Positions 1 to 5,598 of a stretch of DNA of 17,597 bases are shown piece by piece. Under the pieces are notes generated by a model. The model was not told the origin of the DNA. It searched no databases and was given only the letters and a program-made list of their open reading frames with translations. The stretch is from Gemmataceae bacterium. GTDB taxonomy: Bacteria > Planctomycetota > Planctomycetia > Gemmatales > Gemmataceae. The position numbers were made by a program, and so were the translations under genes. The stretch lies in contig CANLGS010000012.1 of assembly GCA_947490035.1 (NCBI GenBank), positions 1 to 17,597 on the forward strand, given 5' to 3'. Numbering within the stretch: the stretch's first letter is position 1; each line of letters starts with the position of its first letter.

Positions 1-626
1 ACCAGAAGGAGCAGCGCCACGAGTGCCACGACCGGCGCGAGCGGGAGCGGGCGTTTCAGGTTTGCGGCACGCACCGCTAACCACACCAACCCGGCCGCGA
101 GTAGCGCCGAGTAGACGTGGCTGAAGCTCGCGTCGTAGGTGCCGTAGCTGTACAACCCGGTGCCGAACGTGAGCATCAGCACGGCCGCATTCGCCCACAG
201 CGTCGAAGCGCCGACCTTGTAGCACGCGTCCAGGCAGAGAACGGCGGTCGCAGCCAGCGCGAGCGCGCCGAGCGCGAGGCAGGCCCAGTGTTCGGCGGGC
301 GAGTACGGCAGGCCGTTGCGCGACGAGTCGGTGACGCACGCCATCACCGGCAGCCGGATGAGCGCGACGCCGAGCGGGTACTTGCACGTGTACCGCTTCA
401 CGTCGGGGTCGGGTTGGTGGAGCGCCACGTCCGAAGGTTCACCCTCATACCACGAGAACGACAGATCGCCCTTGAGGATGGCGTAAGTCCAGATGTGATA
501 GCCGCAGCCGTCGGAGCGGATCGGCGGCCAGTTGGAGTAGGTCGGGTACACCGTCACGGTGGCCGCCGCGAGCGCGACCACCAGAACGGAACTCCACCGC
601 CAGCACCACGCGCGAACGCTGGTCAT
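1..626 (-). CDS. Partial polytopic membrane protein, glycosyltransferase-like (3' end outside window)
   Basis: An open frame runs from ATG at 626 to the left edge without a stop, giving about 208 residues; the C-terminus lies outside the window. It begins MTSVRAWCWRWSSVLVVALA, so a first membrane helix is likely at about residues 12-30. A periplasmic-type stretch follows with SDGCGYHIWTYAILKGDLSF, then KYPLGVALIRLPVM, and then at least four more hydrophobic segments (for example WACLALGALALAATAVLCL and VYSALLAAGLVWLAVRA). A first helix, then an acidic loop, then many helices recalls PMT/ArnT-type membrane glycosyltransferases (GT-C fold) and related planctomycete proteins; that assignment is inference from memory. 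AAGG lies about 9 nt before the ATG. Other frames over this stretch are low-complexity and Arg-rich, as expected of shadows. I am fairly sure of the gene and unsure of the family. Confidence 0.72.
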   Translation of the reverse strand, partial: MTSVRAWCWRWSSVLVVALAAATVTVYPTYSNWPPIRSDGCGYHIWTYAILKGDLSFSWYEGEPSDVALHQPDPDVKRYTCKYPLGVALIRLPVMACVTDSSRNGLPYSPAEHWACLALGALALAATAVLCLDACYKVGASTLWANAAVLMLTFGTGLYSYGTYDASFSHVYSALLAAGLVWLAVRAANLKRPLPLAPVVALVALLLL

Positions 627-690
627 GCGCTCTTGCCTTGAGAGTGGTCACCCGCCCTACGGCAGCGTGGTACACGTGAAGACGTGACGG

Positions 691-827
691 CGGAGGAGTA
701 AGAGCCGCAGATGACGCAGAGAGACGCAGATCAGAACAAGACAGAAGAGTGGTTTTAAAGAACTCTTGGTCTTCGGTCTTGATCTGATCTGCGGCCCTCT
801 GCGTCATCTGCGGCTCTTACTCCTCTG
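691..827. repeat. Long imperfect hairpin between thrS and the upstream membrane protein gene
   Basis: The outer arms 693-721 and 797-825 are perfect 29-bp inverted repeats containing GCCGCAGATGACGCAGAG and its complement. Pairing continues inward: CGCAGATCAG at 725-734 pairs with 784-793, and further pairs leave a short AT-rich centre (TTTTAAAG). The stretch fills most of the gap between the thrS stop (834) and the ATG at 626. Phrases such as CGCAGATNACGCAGA are, from memory, common dispersed intergenic repeats in planctomycetes and verrucomicrobia. It could act as an RNA-stabilising or terminating hairpin at the thrS 3' end, but that is not shown. Confidence 0.85.
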
Positions 828-833
828 CTTCTA

Positions 834-2675
834 TTACGGCACCAGTTTCAGGGTGCGCGACTTCACGACCGCTCCCAGCAGCGCGACGAACTCCGCGACC
901 GGCTTCAGGCCGATGTCGGTGCCGCCACGGAGCCGGACCTTGACGCCGTTGGCCGCGAGTTCCTCGTCGCCGATCACCACGATGTACGGCACCTTCTGCT
1001 TTTCCGCGTCGCGAATCTTCGAGTTCATCCGCTTGTCGCTCAGGTCCGCGTCCACGCGGTAGTCGGCGTCGAGCAGCGTGTCGGCCAGCTTCTGCGCGAA
1101 CTCGAAGTGCCGGTCGGCGATGGGCACGATCGCCACTTGCACCGGCGCCAGCCACACCGGGAACGCGCCCGCGTACAGTTCGATGAGGTACGCGATCATG
1201 CGTTCCATGGTGCTGATGACGCCGCGGTGGATCATCACGGGGCGCTTCGCGGTGTCGTCGGTGTCCTTGAACTCCAGTTTGAACTGCTCCGGTAGGTGCT
1301 GGTCGAGTTGGATGGTCGAGAGAGTCTCCTCGCGGCCCATCACGTCCTTCACCTGCACGTCGATCTTCGGGCCGTAGAACGCGGCTTCGCCATCCGCCTC
1401 GAAGAACGGCAATCCCGATTCGACGAGCGCCTCGCGCAGGGTGGTTTCGCTGCTCAACCACATCGCCGGGTTATCGACGTACTTCACCTTGTCACTTGCG
1501 TCGTGCTTCGACAGCCGGAACCGGTACTCGCCGATGCCCAAGTCCGCGTATGCCTTCTTCATCAAGGTCAGCACGCCCGCGATCTCGACCTTGACCTGAT
1601 CAGGCCGCACGAACAGGTGCGCGTCGTTGAGGGTCATGCACCGCACGCGCGAGAGGCCGCCGACGACGCCGGACTTCTCGTAGCGGTACATGGTGCCGAG
1701 TTCCGCGATGCGCACCGGCAGGTCGCGGTAACTGCGCGCCTTCGACTTGTACACCTGGATGTGGTGCGGGCAGCACATCGGCCGCAACACGAGGTCTTCG
1801 TCTTCGCCTAAGCTCATCGGCGGGAACATGCCGTCCTTGTAGTGCTCCCAGTGGCCCGACTGGATGTACAACTCCTTCTTCGCGGCGTCCGGGGTGTACA
1901 CGTGCAGGTAGCCGGCGCGGCGCTCGTAGTCGGTGATGAAGGTTTCGAGCAACCGGCGGATGGTCGCGCCCTTCGGCAGCAGCATCGGGAAGCCGGACCC
2001 GAATAGCGGTTCGTTCGCGAACAATTCAAGCTCACGCCCGACCTTGCGGTGATCGCGCTTCGCGGCTTCTTCGAGGCGCGCGAGGTGGGCTTTCAGATCG
2101 TCGCCACTTGCCCACGCGATGGCGTGGAACCGCTTCAGCGCCTTGTTCTTTTCGTCCCCGCGCCAGTACGAACCGGTCACCTGGGTGATCTTGAAACCCT
2201 TCGCGTCCAGGTTCCCGGTGGTCTCGACGTGCGGCCCGCGACACAGGTCGGTGAAGGTGTCTTGCTGGTACACGGTGATGGTCGCGGCGGTGGCGTTCGC
2301 GTTGCCGTACTCGTCCTGACCTTTGGTGAGTCCGTCGATGAGTTCGAGCTTGTACGGGTTGTCCTTGAAGATTTCGCGACCTTCGGCGGCGGCGATCTCG
2401 CGCACCTTGAACGGGTGCTTGCCGCGGATGATGGCCTGCATCCGGTCCCGAATCCAGTTCAGTTCACCGTCAGTTGGGTTCACGTCGAGGTCGAAGTCGT
2501 AGTAGAAGCCGTACTCGATGGGCGGGCCGATGGTGGGTATCGCCTGTGGGAAGCGTTCGACCACGGCCTGCGCGAGAACGTGTGCGAGCGAGTGCCGCAA
2601 CTTGTAGAGTGCCGGGTCGTAATCTTTGGGGATGTACCGTTCGCCCGCGGCCTTCAGCTCTGCTTCGGATGCCAT
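834..2675 (-). CDS. thrS: Threonine--tRNA ligase (ThrRS), TGS-less
   Basis: This is a class II aminoacyl-tRNA synthetase that charges tRNA-Thr in the cytoplasm. The start is ATG 2675 (MASEAELKAAGERY), with AAGGA 9 nt upstream, giving 613 aa. An upstream GTG at 2708 would add 11 residues but has no such support. The editing domain is present: HSLAH (H28/H32, the HxxxH motif) and CRGPH (the CxxxH motif). The catalytic core shows RPMCCPHH (zinc Cys), motif 2 (YRYEKSGVVGGLSRVR), NDAHLF (zinc His), and motif 3 (MIHRGVISTMERMIAYLIEL). The C-terminal anticodon-binding domain starts at WLAPVQVAIVPI. Escherichia coli ThrRS has about 642 aa and begins with a TGS domain of about 60 residues. Here the protein starts just before the editing domain, so TGS is missing. 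The usual NCPGH is CCPHH. The gene is monocistronic by spacing. The assignment is secure. Confidence 0.97.
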   Translation of the reverse strand: MASEAELKAAGERYIPKDYDPALYKLRHSLAHVLAQAVVERFPQAIPTIGPPIEYGFYYDFDLDVNPTDGELNWIRDRMQAIIRGKHPFKVREIAAAEGREIFKDNPYKLELIDGLTKGQDEYGNANATAATITVYQQDTFTDLCRGPHVETTGNLDAKGFKITQVTGSYWRGDEKNKALKRFHAIAWASGDDLKAHLARLEEAAKRDHRKVGRELELFANEPLFGSGFPMLLPKGATIRRLLETFITDYERRAGYLHVYTPDAAKKELYIQSGHWEHYKDGMFPPMSLGEDEDLVLRPMCCPHHIQVYKSKARSYRDLPVRIAELGTMYRYEKSGVVGGLSRVRCMTLNDAHLFVRPDQVKVEIAGVLTLMKKAYADLGIGEYRFRLSKHDASDKVKYVDNPAMWLSSETTLREALVESGLPFFEADGEAAFYGPKIDVQVKDVMGREETLSTIQLDQHLPEQFKLEFKDTDDTAKRPVMIHRGVISTMERMIAYLIELYAGAFPVWLAPVQVAIVPIADRHFEFAQKLADTLLDADYRVDADLSDKRMNSKIRDAEKQKVPYIVVIGDEELAANGVKVRLRGGTDIGLKPVAEFVALLGAVVKSRTLKLVP

Positions 2676-2684
2676 TGGAAGATG

Positions 2685-2689
2685 TCCTT
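2685..2689 (-). promoter_or_regulatory. Ribosome binding site deciding the thrS start
   Basis: AAGGA on the minus strand lies 9 nt before ATG 2675. The alternative GTG at 2708 lacks a comparable site. This supports the shorter thrS product, whose first residues are MASEAE. Confidence 0.6.
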
Positions 2690-2722
2690 CGTGCGACGCC
2701 CGTGGCACCCGGTCCTTTCACA

Positions 2723-2767
2723 GCCCGCACCGCGCGTCACTTGCTCGCGCAATCTTGCTGTGCGGGC
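2723..2767 (-). repeat. Hairpin element upstream of thrS, copy 1 (GNRA-loop core)
   Basis: The outer arms 2723-2730 (GCCCGCAC) and 2760-2767 (GTGCGGGC) pair perfectly over 8 bp. The enclosed core 2731-2760 matches 9401-9430 at 28 of 30 positions. Read on the thrS-coding strand, the core contains TTGC-GCGA-GCAA, a 4-bp stem closed by a GNRA tetraloop. In the other copy the loop is GAAA, and the outer arms differ in sequence but still pair. The element ends about 48 nt before the thrS start, so it may be transcribed as part of the leader. It could be a dispersed repeat or a structured RNA motif. Confidence 0.7.
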
Positions 2768-3205
2768 CGACAGCCGGAACCTCCCGAAGCGTCGCTAACC
2801 ATGTTACGAGTTGAGTGACACCGCGACACAGTGAAGAGGTTCGCCGGAGACGAACTCAGACCTCGGGTCAGCCGAGAGTTGCGAAGTGTCGGTTGGGTTG
2901 CCCCCCGTGGCCCCCCCCTCGGAGGCCGCTTCGCCGCGAACGCTGGGATTTTCAGCGTTCTCGCGGTTTTGGCTGTTGGAGGGTGGCCTTTATGAGCAAT
3001 TTCCACTGGAATTTCCAGTGTTCGGTTAATGCCAGGGGTGACCTTAACGACACGCGCACGGGACAACGCGGCCGTTTCGCCATTCTGCCTGACCCAAACT
3101 CACAGTGGCCATTAGCCAACTAATATCATGAGCCATTACTGAACGCCTGTCAAGTCATCGCGGCGTTGGGCAACTGCAATCACGGCACTCCTGCTGCTAT
3201 CGTCA
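2768..3205. other. Intergenic stretch without a credible gene; small palindromes
   Basis: No reading frame here has a recognisable product, a good ribosome site or normal composition. The stretch holds a hairpin at 2935-2965 (CGCGAACGCT against AGCGTTCTCGCG, one bulge), a near-perfect palindrome at 3004-3020 (CACTGGAA-T-TTCCAGTG), and an 8-bp hairpin at 3186-3211 (CACTCCTG/CAGGAGTG). There are C-runs at 2900-2920. A promoter for thrS is expected at about 2780-2850 on the minus strand, but no clear -10/-35 pair was found. Confidence 0.6.
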
Positions 3206-3450
3206 GGAGTGACGCAGTTGGCGGTTTTAGCCCTCGGAGAGGGCGTGGGCGTGTAGCCAGAGGTGAAGTGAGGCTTTGCGAACGAAACCCCTGGCGGACA
3301 AGGCGGACAATCGGTGAGCGTTGTTGCCATCGGGTTTCACGCGATGCGCGCCAGGGGTTACGCTCGCAAAGCCTCACTTCACCCCGGCTACACGCCCACG
3401 CCCTCTCCGAGGGCTGAAAACCACACCCTCTCTGCCAACTGCGTAACTCC
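3206..3450. repeat. 245-bp imperfect palindrome with ~90-100 bp arms
   Basis: The left arm 3206-3296 and right arm 3349-3450 are near reverse complements. Shared blocks include AAGTGAGGC, GTAGCC, GGGCGTGGGCGTG, CCCTCGGAGAGGGC and GACGCAGTTGGC, with a roughly 11-nt insertion in the right arm (about 3419-3435). The arms themselves carry a self-complementary GCCCTC-GGA-GAGGGC. The 50-bp centre is unrelated. Short frames that read EVRLCERNPWR on both strands are by-products of the symmetry. There is no transposase and no clear target duplication. It may be a miniature inverted-repeat element or a planctomycete dispersed palindrome. Confidence 0.85.
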
Positions 3451-3474
3451 TAACAGTCTCAAAAACCCACATTA

Positions 3475-3503
3475 TTCTTGCGCCTCACTTCGTTCGGCAA
3501 GAA
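3475..3503 (-). terminator. Possible weak terminator downstream of the FGE-fold gene pair
   Basis: On the minus strand TTCTTGC (3497-3503) pairs with GCAAGAA (3475-3481) around a 15-nt loop, and five T residues follow at 3461-3465, about 9 nt beyond the stem. The geometry is poor for an intrinsic terminator. It is listed because it is the only candidate at the 3' end of the operon. Confidence 0.25.
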
Positions 3504-3506
3504 AGA

Positions 3507-3545
3507 GAAGAGAAAATAGTAAAACGATCAAACAGAAAATAGTAA
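3507..3545 (-). repeat. 39-bp AT-rich 3' block, copy 1
   Basis: This block is identical over 39 of 39 bases to 4597-4635, and each copy sits at the 3' end of one FGE-fold paralogue. It contains the 12-mer TTACTATTTTCT (coding strand) twice, 23 bp apart. It is strikingly AT-rich for this genome. In copy 1 it lies just after the TGA stop. In copy 2 the coding frame runs into it. If the adjacent segment is a DGR variable region, this is where an initiation-of-mutagenic-homing sequence would be expected, but no known IMH consensus or cruciform was recognised. Confidence 0.9.
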
Positions 3546-3546
3546 C

Positions 3547-4506
3547 TCAGTCCAGGCGGAAACAGAACCGAAAACCGATGAAGTTGAAACGGTTCGCGGG
3601 CGCGTACCAGTCGCGGTACGCGGCGCGGCAGTACCGTGGGTAGCTGTTCCACGAACCACCACGCAGCACGCGATATTCGTTTGATTGTTTATCATTTGCA
3701 TACGGGTCGGTCTGCTCGTCGTCGGTGTACGGCGTGTACCAGTCCGCGCACCACTCCCGCACGTTCCCGTGCAGGTCGCGCAGCCCCCACGGGTTCGCGG
3801 GGAACGAACCCACGTCTGTCGTCTTCTTGCGGTTCTTACCCTTCGGTGAGCCGTTCCAGGTGTACTTCCCGTCGTAGTTCGCGAGGTCGGTGTTGAGCAT
3901 GTCCCCGAAATGGTATTCGGTCGTCGTCCCCGCGCGGCACGCCCATTCCCACTCGGCTTCGGTGGGCAACCGCACCGTCGCGGTTCCCTGCTGGCCCTCC
4001 GTGAGTTTCGCGCAGAACTCCTGGCACTCCTCCCACGACACTTTCTCGACCGGGCGGTTCGGTCCTTTGAACCGGCTCGGCTCGGTCCCCATCACCGCCA
4101 ACCATTGTGCTTGCGTGACCGGATGCGCCCCCATGAACCAACCGCGGGTGAGAGTCACCTTGTGAACCGGTTGCTCGTCGTCCTCGACCGTTCCACCCAT
4201 CAAGAACGAGCCGGGCGGAACGAACGCGCCGACCAGCGGCATCCCACCCGGAAGGGTGAGCGTGTGCTGGGGAACGCACGGCACAACACCCGCGCCGAGT
4301 AGCGCGACCACGCGAGCCTGCCACGCCGCGCGTTCCGGGTGGGCGTCCGGTTCGCAACAGGTGTTTAGCAGCCGGCGGTGCAATCGCAGCAGTTCGGACC
4401 GGCGCGGGTCGTCGTACTCCTCCAGCCAGTCGGCCAGGACGAGCCACCGCGTCTCTTCGAGCGGGTCGGACACAATCCCCGATAAGAGCGCATCAAGCGT
4501 ATTCAT
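3547..4506 (-). CDS. TIGR02996 + FGE/C-type-lectin-fold variable protein, copy 1 (putative DGR target)
   Basis: The product has 319 aa. Start ATG 4506 (MNTLDALLSGIV) has a GGGGGAGAG site directly upstream; a longer frame from 4566 lacks support. Residues 1-45 are a TIGR02996 domain (LVLADWLEEYDDPRRSELL). Residues 88-319 are a formylglycine-generating-enzyme/sulfatase-modifying-factor fold (PPGSFLMGG, HPVTQAQW, RLPTEAEWEWACRAG, DLHGNVREWC, RVLRGGSW, GFR). True FGE needs two cysteines in the RGGS(Y/W)xC....C segment; here the first is Ser288 and only Cys293 remains, so FGE catalysis is unlikely. Compared with the upstream paralogue, residues 287-314 differ at N287, Y289, R291, Y292, Y297, D299, N305, F307, N308 and F314, by adenine-biased changes with no silent ones. 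That is the hallmark of a DGR variable region. Probable role: surface or sensor ligand binding (inference). No signal peptide is seen. It is last in a run of minus-strand genes, 111 nt after its paralogue. Confidence 0.93.
   Translation of the reverse strand: MNTLDALLSGIVSDPLEETRWLVLADWLEEYDDPRRSELLRLHRRLLNTCCEPDAHPERAAWQARVVALLGAGVVPCVPQHTLTLPGGMPLVGAFVPPGSFLMGGTVEDDEQPVHKVTLTRGWFMGAHPVTQAQWLAVMGTEPSRFKGPNRPVEKVSWEECQEFCAKLTEGQQGTATVRLPTEAEWEWACRAGTTTEYHFGDMLNTDLANYDGKYTWNGSPKGKNRKKTTDVGSFPANPWGLRDLHGNVREWCADWYTPYTDDEQTDPYANDKQSNEYRVLRGGSWNSYPRYCRAAYRDWYAPANRFNFIGFRFCFRLD
3553..3672 (-). other. Putative DGR variable region VR1
   Basis: These are 40 codons from CGC (3670-3672) to CTG (3553-3555). 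Aligned without gaps to 4642-4761, they show 13 nucleotide differences in 10 codons, all at codon positions 1 or 2. Twelve of the 13 sites have A in one of the two copies on the coding strand. Nine of the ten variable codons end in C, as expected when AAC codons of a template are mutated to NNC. The exception is CGG/CAG. Variable codons lie between 3565 and 3648. Confidence 0.85.
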
Positions 4507-4617
4507 CTCTCCCCCGCACTTGCGCCCCGCGCCGACGGGCCGCGCCCAATCACCCGCGTCCCGCACACGTCCGACACATGCCGACCAAACAAAGCCGAAG
4601 AGAAAATAGTAAAACGA
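4507..4617. other. Spacer between the two FGE-fold paralogues
   Basis: These 111 nt hold part of the 39-bp AT-rich block (4597-4617) and the ribosome site of copy 1. No separate promoter was recognised, so co-transcription with the upstream paralogue is plausible. Confidence 0.5.
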
Positions 4618-4635
4618 TCAAACAGAAAATAGTAA
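4597..4635 (-). repeat. 39-bp AT-rich 3' block, copy 2
   Basis: It is identical to 3507-3545. The frame of the copy 2 gene continues into it and stops at TGA 4618-4620, adding residues QLLFSV. Between this block and the variable region, copy 1 has 5 nt (3546-3550) where copy 2 has 4 (4636-4639). This short patch therefore differs by substitutions and an indel, while both flanks are conserved. Confidence 0.9.
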
Positions 4636-5598
4636 TTGATCCAGGCGGAAACAGACCCGAAAACCGATGAAGTCGTTACGGACCGCGGGCGCGTACCAGC
4701 TGCGGCACGCGGCGCGGCAGAACTGTGGGTTGCTGTACCACGAACCACCACGCAGCACGCGCGTATTATCGTTAGATTGTTTTACGTCTACGTTCGGGTC
4801 GGTCTGATCGTCAGGAGTGTATTCCGCGTACCCGTCCACGCACCACTCCCACACGTTGCCGTGCAGGTCGTAAATCCCCCACGGGTTCGCCGGAAATGAC
4901 CCCACATCCGTCGTTTTCTTGCGGTTCTTACCCTTCGGTGAGCCGTTCCAAGTGTACGTCCCGTTGTAGTTCGCCGCGTCCGCGCTCGGCACGTCCCCGA
5001 AGTGGTAGTGCGTCGTCGTCCCGGCCCGGCACGCATGTTCCCACTCCGCCTCCGTCGGCAGCCGCACCGTTGCGCGCCCGCTCAACTGCGCCGTAAGCTT
5101 CGCGCAGAACTGCTGACAGTCCTCCCACGAGACTTGCTCGACCGGGCGGTTCGATCCTTTGAACTGGCTCGGCTCGGTCCCCATCACCGCCTGCCACTGC
5201 GCCTGCGTCACGGGGTGGACACCGAGGAACGACCCCGCCGTGAGGGTGACGCGATGAACCGGCTTCTCGCTGTCGAACTCGGCCCCGCCCATCAGGAACG
5301 CACCCGGCGGCACGAACGCGAACATCATCGGCACGCCGCCGGGGAGCGTGAGCGTTTCCTGCGGCACGCACGGGCGCGCGCCGGCGACGAGCAGTTCCAC
5401 CATACGCGACTGCCACTCCGCGCGCTGCGGGTGCGCGTCGGGTTCACAGCAGGTCGCGAGCATCTTGCGGTGCAAGCGAAGAAGCTCGGACCGGCGCGGG
5501 TCGTCGTACTCCTCCAGCCAGTCGGCCAGGACGAGCCACCGCGTTTCCTCACGCGGGTCGGTCACGATCCCGGCGAGCATCGCGTCGAGTTCGGTCAT
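4618..5598 (-). CDS. TIGR02996 + FGE/C-type-lectin-fold variable protein, copy 2 (putative DGR target)
   Basis: The product has 326 aa. Start ATG 5598 (MTELDAMLAGIV) has GAGGG about 6 nt upstream; the longer frame to 5832 overlaps the neighbouring gene and is rejected. The domain order matches the downstream paralogue: TIGR02996 (residues 1-45), then the FGE-type fold (PPGAFLMGG, HPVTQAQWQAVMG, RLPTEAEWEHACRAG, DLHGNVWEWC, RVLRGGSW, GFR). The position of the first FGE catalytic cysteine is Ser289 and the second is Cys294, so enzymatic FGE activity is unlikely. Residues differing from copy 1 within the putative variable region are Y288, N290, Q292, F293, C298, S300, V306, N308, D309 and V315. 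The C-terminus is 7 residues longer than copy 1, because CAA replaces the stop of copy 1 and the frame enters the 39-bp AT-rich block. It starts 14 nt after the 161-aa gene, so it is probably in the same operon. Confidence 0.93.
   Translation of the reverse strand: MTELDAMLAGIVTDPREETRWLVLADWLEEYDDPRRSELLRLHRKMLATCCEPDAHPQRAEWQSRMVELLVAGARPCVPQETLTLPGGVPMMFAFVPPGAFLMGGAEFDSEKPVHRVTLTAGSFLGVHPVTQAQWQAVMGTEPSQFKGSNRPVEQVSWEDCQQFCAKLTAQLSGRATVRLPTEAEWEHACRAGTTTHYHFGDVPSADAANYNGTYTWNGSPKGKNRKKTTDVGSFPANPWGIYDLHGNVWEWCVDGYAEYTPDDQTDPNVDVKQSNDNTRVLRGGSWYSNPQFCRAACRSWYAPAVRNDFIGFRVCFRLDQLLFSV
4642..4761 (-). other. Putative DGR variable region VR2
   Basis: This is the counterpart of 3553-3672 at a constant offset of 1089 bp. 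Variable codons lie between 4654 and 4737. Outside it, both genes have accumulated ordinary silent changes: 8 in the 25 identical residues from TWNGSPKG to PANPW. Inside it, no third-position change is seen over 40 codons. Confidence 0.85.

Follow-up and report, generated by a model that had tools for sequence, protein, structure and literature searches.

Diversity-generating retroelements (DGRs) that act on lectin-like domains have been described in several bacteria. The DGR of Treponema denticola that diversifies TvpA uses one template for several remote targets, and its target genes also occur in strains without the reverse transcriptase (RT) and template repeat (PMC4891356). Cyanobacterial DGRs have dispersed C-type lectin (CLec) targets, which are fused to Ser/Thr kinases and orthocaspases (PMC7517822). 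The FGS/FGE domain (FGE, formylglycine-generating enzyme) has been proposed as a DGR-diversified intracellular sensor of invaders in cyanobacteria and other multicellular bacteria (PMC7159879, PMC8195603, PMC10907252), and planctomycetes are named among the multicellular carriers (PMC10907252). The DGR literature also mentions a TRADD-N protein of Gemmata massiliana that is fused to domains of the cyclase, FGS, and caspase types. In the DGR of Bordetella phage BPP-1, the variable region (VR) is followed by an initiation of mutagenic homing (IMH) element and then by a hairpin, both of which are needed for homing (PMC3240598). Here, we analyzed a window of 17,597 nt from a Gemmataceae bacterium, which is contig C12 (CANLGS010000012.1) of a 4.67-Mb assembly with 754 contigs and 68% completeness (GCA_947490035.1). 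The window contains two tandem paralogous genes, g1 and g2, which encode proteins with an FGE fold and end in the putative variable regions VR1 and VR2. Our analysis indicates that VR1 and VR2 were very probably shaped by a DGR. Contigs, genomes of the same family, and loci are designated below by C, G, and L, respectively, followed by a number.

The preliminary description of the window had reported a DGR-like pattern of differences between the two 3' ends, and recomputation confirmed it. VR1 and VR2 aligned without gaps and differed at 13 bases in 10 codons; the differences at codon positions 1, 2, and 3 numbered 7, 6, and 0, respectively, and A was present in one copy at 12 of the 13 sites. 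The remaining 278 compared codons of g1 and g2 contained 195 differences (51, 37, and 107 by codon position), 78 of which involved A; the VR was thus distinct from the rest of the genes in both respects (Fisher P = 5.5e-5 for position 3 and 2.3e-4 for the involvement of A). At the rate of the gene bodies, 15.4 third-position changes would be expected per 40 codons, whereas none was observed in the VR (Poisson 2e-7), and no other 40-codon segment of g1 and g2 was free of third-position differences. Codon 319, directly after the VR, differed at its third position (GAC/GAT). Seven of the eight silent differences previously noted upstream of the VR were tabulated in codons 226-240, and the eighth, in codon 216, was found by eye. 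Since the VRs contain no silent change in 40 codons compared with approximately 15 per 40 elsewhere, their last rewriting appears to have been recent.

The residues used at the variable sites of homologues pointed in the same direction. A search with the g1 protein scored 7995 candidates, of which 5933 matched at E <= 1e-40, and the best 120 of these, including g1 itself and the g2 sequence, were aligned; two of the 120 carry the name Gemmataceae bacterium and one is from Frigoriglobus tundricola, which agrees with the probable placement of the assembly in the Gemmataceae. In this alignment of the best 120 of 5933 matches, 12 C-terminal columns exceeded 2.8 bits and were interspersed with nearly fixed columns. 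The residues K, Q, E, M, and W, which are unreachable from AAC or AAT by adenine changes alone, occupied 16 of 1316 cells (1.2%) in 11 of these VR columns, compared with 295 of 1160 cells (25%) in the 10 non-VR columns above the same threshold. The twelfth column, 291, contained mostly Q, R, L, D, V, E, and G, with 48 of 119 cells outside the AAY set; judging from these residues, it looks like an AAG codon. Ordinary selection as the source of the VR variation was rejected on the basis of this alphabet.

The corresponding rival explanation combines gene conversion with ordinary positive selection: conversion would have homogenized the tandem 3' ends, and ten residues would subsequently have been altered by selection on a ligand surface. 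Gene conversion between tandem copies is common, and the identity between the two copies extends, after a small difference, beyond the VR to cover a T-rich tract of 39 nt; copying of the template by a DGR would not by itself account for this extension. However, selection would also be expected to use the five residues that are so scarce in the VR columns, the changes fall on sites that are adenines in templates of other genomes, and the same pattern was found in one gene pair of another genus, in G038. We therefore consider this combination very unlikely.

The coincidence with template adenines was examined with 13 templates, one from the same assembly and twelve foreign. For each template, 8-12 of the 13 differences between VR1 and VR2 fell on adenines, which make up 24-30 of 117 positions per template (hypergeometric P 1.4e-8 to 6.8e-4); the templates are mutually related and do not constitute 13 independent tests. 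The variation in the 3' region thus corresponds to template adenines, as judged from related templates. The 3' end of VR1 reads CGCCTGGACT and resembles the VRs of related DGRs; the end of the template on C2 of G088 reads CGCCTGCACT. In the TIGR02996-FGE gene pair of G038 (C62/C174b), the differences at the three codon positions numbered 8, 5, and 0 in the VR, compared with 20, 20, and 48 in the body.

Related DGRs in the family showed directly how FGE C-termini vary relative to a template. For eleven VRs, a close template, with no more than 7 mismatches outside adenines, was present in the same genome (the pair on C142 of our assembly, described below, is included). In these VRs, 178 of the 308 adenines were changed, as were 17 of the 979 bases other than adenine. 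The VRs left out of this sum had more non-adenine mismatches, namely 10 in G002 and, in G088, 9 (C303), 21 (C465), 22 (C159r), 21 (C219), and 21 (C137). The template on C2 of G088 had three targets, in which 18, 19, and 18 of the 30 adenines were changed and none of the 87 other bases; one of these targets lies about 17.5 kb away. Two of the three were fully read and encode caspase-FGE proteins, and the third was covered only in part. The single target of the template on C190 of G088, a kinase-FGE gene, was changed at 13 of 27 adenines and 0 of 90 other bases. The comparison of FGE C-termini in relatives that the preliminary description had proposed thus came out in favor of a DGR, with changes almost only at template adenines; together, the position, alphabet, and template-site tests support the reading of the 3' ends as DGR variable regions. 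The targets with a close template encode caspase-FGE proteins, kinase-FGE proteins, or FGE proteins whose start lies mostly outside the sequence examined. In a single genome, that of G088, at least five template repeats were counted, along with four genes for DGR-type RTs (L059, L051, L056, L061, and L083). The protein encoded by a further G088 gene (L081 on C219, 1505-2860, minus strand) has a TIR domain at its N-terminus (TIR_2, 44.8 bits) and a VR-like FGE C-terminus; the best template differs from this VR at 21 non-adenine positions.

The assembly that contains the window also contains a DGR cassette, on C142. Its components are listed with the features of the window in Table 1.

Table 1. 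Features of g1 and g2 in the window (C12) and of the DGR cassette on C142, the latter in their order along the contig
Feature	Contig	Position	Strand	Description
g1	C12	3547-4506	-	319 aa; TIGR02996 N-terminal, PF03781 (C-type-lectin-like FGE) C-terminal; ends in VR1
VR1	C12	3553-3672	-	Last 40 compared codons, g1 codons 279-318; then GAC TGA
T-rich tract after g1 stop	C12	3507-3545	-	39 nt; identical to the tract after VR2
Candidate degenerate CGAAG hairpin	C12	3475-3503	-	Weak; 7-bp outer stem by eye, ACGAAGT core of 1 bp only
g2	C12	4618-5598	-	326 aa; g1 paralogue with the same domains; ends in VR2 and continues beyond the g1 stop position
VR2	C12	4642-4761	-	Same 40 codons in g2
T-rich tract after VR2	C12	4597-4635	-	First bases still coding in g2
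End of an open frame with FGE-like C-terminus and VR	C142	from 78		
Avd gene	C142	314-673		NF033474 equivalog, 113.3 bits (cut-off 80); PF22296, 69.3 bits (cut-off 40)
DGR-type RT gene	C142	673-1737		Stop 1735-1737; motif IPIGNQTSQ; aligned with 11 DGR-type RTs of relatives
Template repeat	C142	from 1739		Immediately behind the RT stop

The RT of this cassette carries the motif type that we take to be a mark of DGR RTs, and the open frame with the VR was too short for a Pfam match. Relative to its own template, the C142 VR was changed at 23 of the 29 adenines and at 7 of the 88 remaining bases. No further DGR-type RT was found in the assembly, which would favor the C142 cassette, with its present template, as the one that rewrites VR1 and VR2; however, within 123 nt the template has 34 and 33 non-adenine mismatches to VR1 and VR2, respectively, compared with 7 to its own VR. 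These mismatches exclude the C142 template as the donor, and we regard this explanation as scarcely credible; the C142 RT protein could act in trans on another template. The search for a DGR-type RT and a matching template suggested in the preliminary description was therefore successful in part, in that an RT, Avd, and a template repeat are present but the template does not match VR1 and VR2.

Other RT genes of the assembly were inspected as well. The RT on C269 was rejected as a DGR RT because it is group II-intron-like (RVT_N, GIIM), and those on C88 (L014) and C126 (L016) best matched retron type XIII models (PADLOC). C200 also bears an RT, and C696 a short match; no type was assigned to either. 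Two kinase-FGE genes of the assembly, on C557 (L018) and C624 (L174), have VRs with 12 base differences between them, all outside codon position 3, and 3' flanks that are T-rich and nearly identical; they are a third VR class in the assembly. Another contig, C85 (L175), encodes a kinase-nSTAND1-FGE protein (2-4354, minus strand), and the contig end falls inside its VR-like C-terminus.

Several observations, in addition to the identity that runs into the T-rich tract, weigh against DGR diversification of VR1 and VR2. Codon 314 (TTC/GTC) is the sole difference without A in either copy. Third-position VR differences occurred in 12 of the 14 TIGR02996-FGE pairs compared, namely nine other G038 pairs (4-10 each), a G088 pair (7), and the two pairings of the window with G008 (8 each); they would be expected if the templates of the paired genes differ. 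A DNA search with VR1 in the assembly, which is 68% complete, revealed no template for VR1 and VR2 among the 40 candidates scored out of 50 from the first look, returning only VR1, VR2, and two poorer C-termini on C51 and C557; no such template was found in the eight contigs of the assembly that were examined or in the 95 family genomes, where at most 8 candidates were scored per genome and a template could be missed. Among the family genomes, no exact same-genome template was found for a TIGR02996-FGE gene, the gene starts of several targets with a template lying outside the sequence covered. Matches to VR1 DNA at 1e-10 were present in 13 of the 95 family genomes and matches to the C142 RT at 1e-30 in 11, including the own genome, and 8 of the 13 genomes that contain VR-like DNA lacked an RT match at the latter threshold. 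Four of these eight (G035, G038, G060, and G066) also gave no match at 1e-8 to an RT profile built from 12 DGR RTs; the other four (G008, G011, G017, and G075) gave only weaker matches, and the one that was aligned, on C27 of G011, is not DGR-type. The RT matches at L044, L042, L043, and L058 (in G003, G011, G018, and G050) were rejected as DGR RTs because they have PQ...SP instead of PIG(N/S)..SQ; this rejection covers the four aligned rows, which include one of the two G003 matches. Finally, the hairpin that follows related VRs, described below, is not intact after VR1 (1 bp around the core) and was absent after VR2 in a CGAAG-centred scan.

The missing template, the VR-bearing genomes without an RT match, and the degraded or missing hairpin are also what would be expected if VR1 and VR2 are relics, i.e., if diversification took place in the past, the cassette was then lost from the lineage, and the genes now evolve normally. 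Target genes without the RT and template repeat, as recorded for T. denticola (PMC4891356), provide a parallel. This would be a special case of a DGR origin and is possible, though on balance doubtful: the 40 codons without silent change between VR1 and VR2 point to recent rewriting, and the assembly is only 68% complete. It is somewhat more probable than not that VR1 and VR2 are still DGR targets at present. The most likely explanation is that they are remote targets of a second DGR, which is missing from the assembly or has been lost; DGR loci, being repeats, may easily be dropped from draft assemblies. In the mechanism that we propose for such a DGR, the RT and Avd would copy a template RNA and misread its adenines, and the resulting cDNA would replace the final ~120 nt in target genes that lie at other chromosomal sites and have a matching 3' end. 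A second cassette outside the assembled part of the genome would hold, or would have held, the template of VR1 and VR2, and the T-rich tract together with the hairpin would mark the target.

The sequences around the 3' ends of related VRs suggest how targets may be distinguished from templates. In 10 of the 12 VRs with a same-genome template (the exceptions being G002 and C423 of G027), the VR ended in GGACT and the template in GCACT or GTACC. VR1 ends in CTGGACT, as do related VRs, and VR2 in CTGGATC. The mean T content of the 45 nt past the VR was 49% for these 12 VRs together with VR1 and VR2, compared with 15% past the 13 templates (Mann-Whitney 1.5e-4). Among the 11 VRs with a close template, 9 were followed by at least 40% T after the stop and 9 by a CGAAG hairpin of at least 4 bp; the T-rich tract sits between the VR and the hairpin in most templated VRs. 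The G002 VR, whose template has 10 non-adenine mismatches, is followed by neither. At least 40% T was found in 22 of 42 3' flanks, a set that takes in FGE genes without a clear VR. Hairpins of at least 7 bp were not clearly enriched after VR-like C-termini (3 of 35, compared with 35 of 660 stretches drawn at random from the same loci), whereas CGAAG-centred hairpins of at least 3 bp followed 11 of 35 C-termini and occurred in 49 of 3300 random stretches; the CGAAG core was picked after viewing the hairpin scan, which makes this a post-hoc count, and the T-rich tract was likewise noticed before it was counted. No mention of a T-rich tract was found among the papers listed in one search of the open-licence literature on DGRs or variable repeats, which is weak evidence of novelty. 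An AAGTCC motif was seen by eye after 10 of 13 template repeats (L012, L049, L059, L083, and others) and may be part of a template RNA structure.

The proteins encoded by g1 and g2 matched TIGR02996 with 41.1 and 42 bits (cut-off 29.05) and the PF03781 FGE-sulfatase family with 177.5 and 167 bits, respectively, and the VR lies at the C-terminus of the latter domain. Above the cut-offs, the domain search detected only TIGR02996 and FGE; an NTPase or effector domain was not found. As the preliminary description had stated, serine replaces the first FGE catalytic cysteine: the position that we take to be catalytic corresponds to S288 in a sequence alignment, so that the two active-site cysteines of catalytic FGE are not both present. 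Column 288 is itself among the variable columns of the homologue alignment. The loss of this cysteine argues against an FGE enzyme, and g1 and g2 would instead encode binding or sensor proteins in which the FGE domain has no FGE activity. Sister genes fused to kinases, caspases, TIR, and a STAND NTPase fit the invader-sensor proposal; for g1 and g2, in which no effector domain was found, a sensor role is putative. An AlphaFold2 model had a mean predicted local distance difference test score (pLDDT) of 63, with values below 50 over 194-249 and 257-311, and was not used because it is unreliable there. Just downstream of g1, positions 3202-3454 of the window contain nested inverted repeats with arms of 21, 34, and 44 nt that are 86-97% complementary and form a single long fold-back resembling a miniature inverted-repeat transposable element.

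As a tentative generalization, which we hold with a little less than even confidence, Gemmata-like planctomycetes may operate several DGR cassettes in parallel, each of them using a separate template, and rewrite FGE sensors in trans throughout the chromosome. The targets would be bare TIGR02996-FGE proteins or proteins fused to kinases, caspases, TIR, or a STAND NTPase, and would be marked, beyond the VR, by an IMH of the GGACT type, a T-rich tract containing TTTAC motifs, and a CGAAG hairpin. If such a three-part address is real, any gene that gains the 3' module would become a target. Remote multiple FGE or CLec targets, fusions to kinases and caspases, and several DGRs per genome are already known from Treponema, cyanobacteria, and Thiohalocapsa (PMC4891356, PMC7517822, PMC10907252). 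The present case would add a planctomycete lineage, with TIGR02996-FGE as a target family; no description of TIGR02996-FGE DGR targets was found in the open-licence papers searched, in which the name TIGR02996 does not occur. Our findings place programmed hypermutation on a large and mostly unnamed protein family (5933 matches, the best 120 of which show the adenine alphabet), and they offer a case in which trans-acting DGRs of planctomycetes can be tested, with the T-rich tract and hairpin as a candidate target address. If this reading is true, the cells of this uncultured planctomycete would possess a set of binding proteins that keeps changing, through a mechanism known from other bacteria.

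Compared with the described systems, the related VRs with a template resemble the BPP-1 DGR in that a GGACT-type end and a CGAAG hairpin characterize most of them; unlike in BPP-1, a T-rich tract lies between the VR and the hairpin in most cases, and no phage context was noticed, although no systematic search for one was made. The own-assembly protein on C85, with kinase, nSTAND1, and FGE domains, is like the FGE conflict systems and the targets of Thiohalocapsa PB-PSB1, whereas g1 and g2 differ from these systems in having no match to an NTPase or effector domain above the cut-off. The comparison with TvpA made in the preliminary description was borne out by a search of PDB sequences, in which TvpA of T. 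denticola (2y3c) was the best match (E = 1.9e-26). TvpA is a surface lipoprotein. Like the TvpA DGR, the present system places a C-terminal VR on an FGE-fold protein; unlike TvpA, the g1 and g2 proteins carry an N-terminal TIGR02996 domain and belong to another phylum. The caspase-FGE and kinase-FGE targets of G088, which have an exact template, and the kinase-FGE genes of our own assembly are like the targets of cyanobacterial DGRs, from which the system described here differs in its planctomycete host and its TIGR02996-FGE targets.

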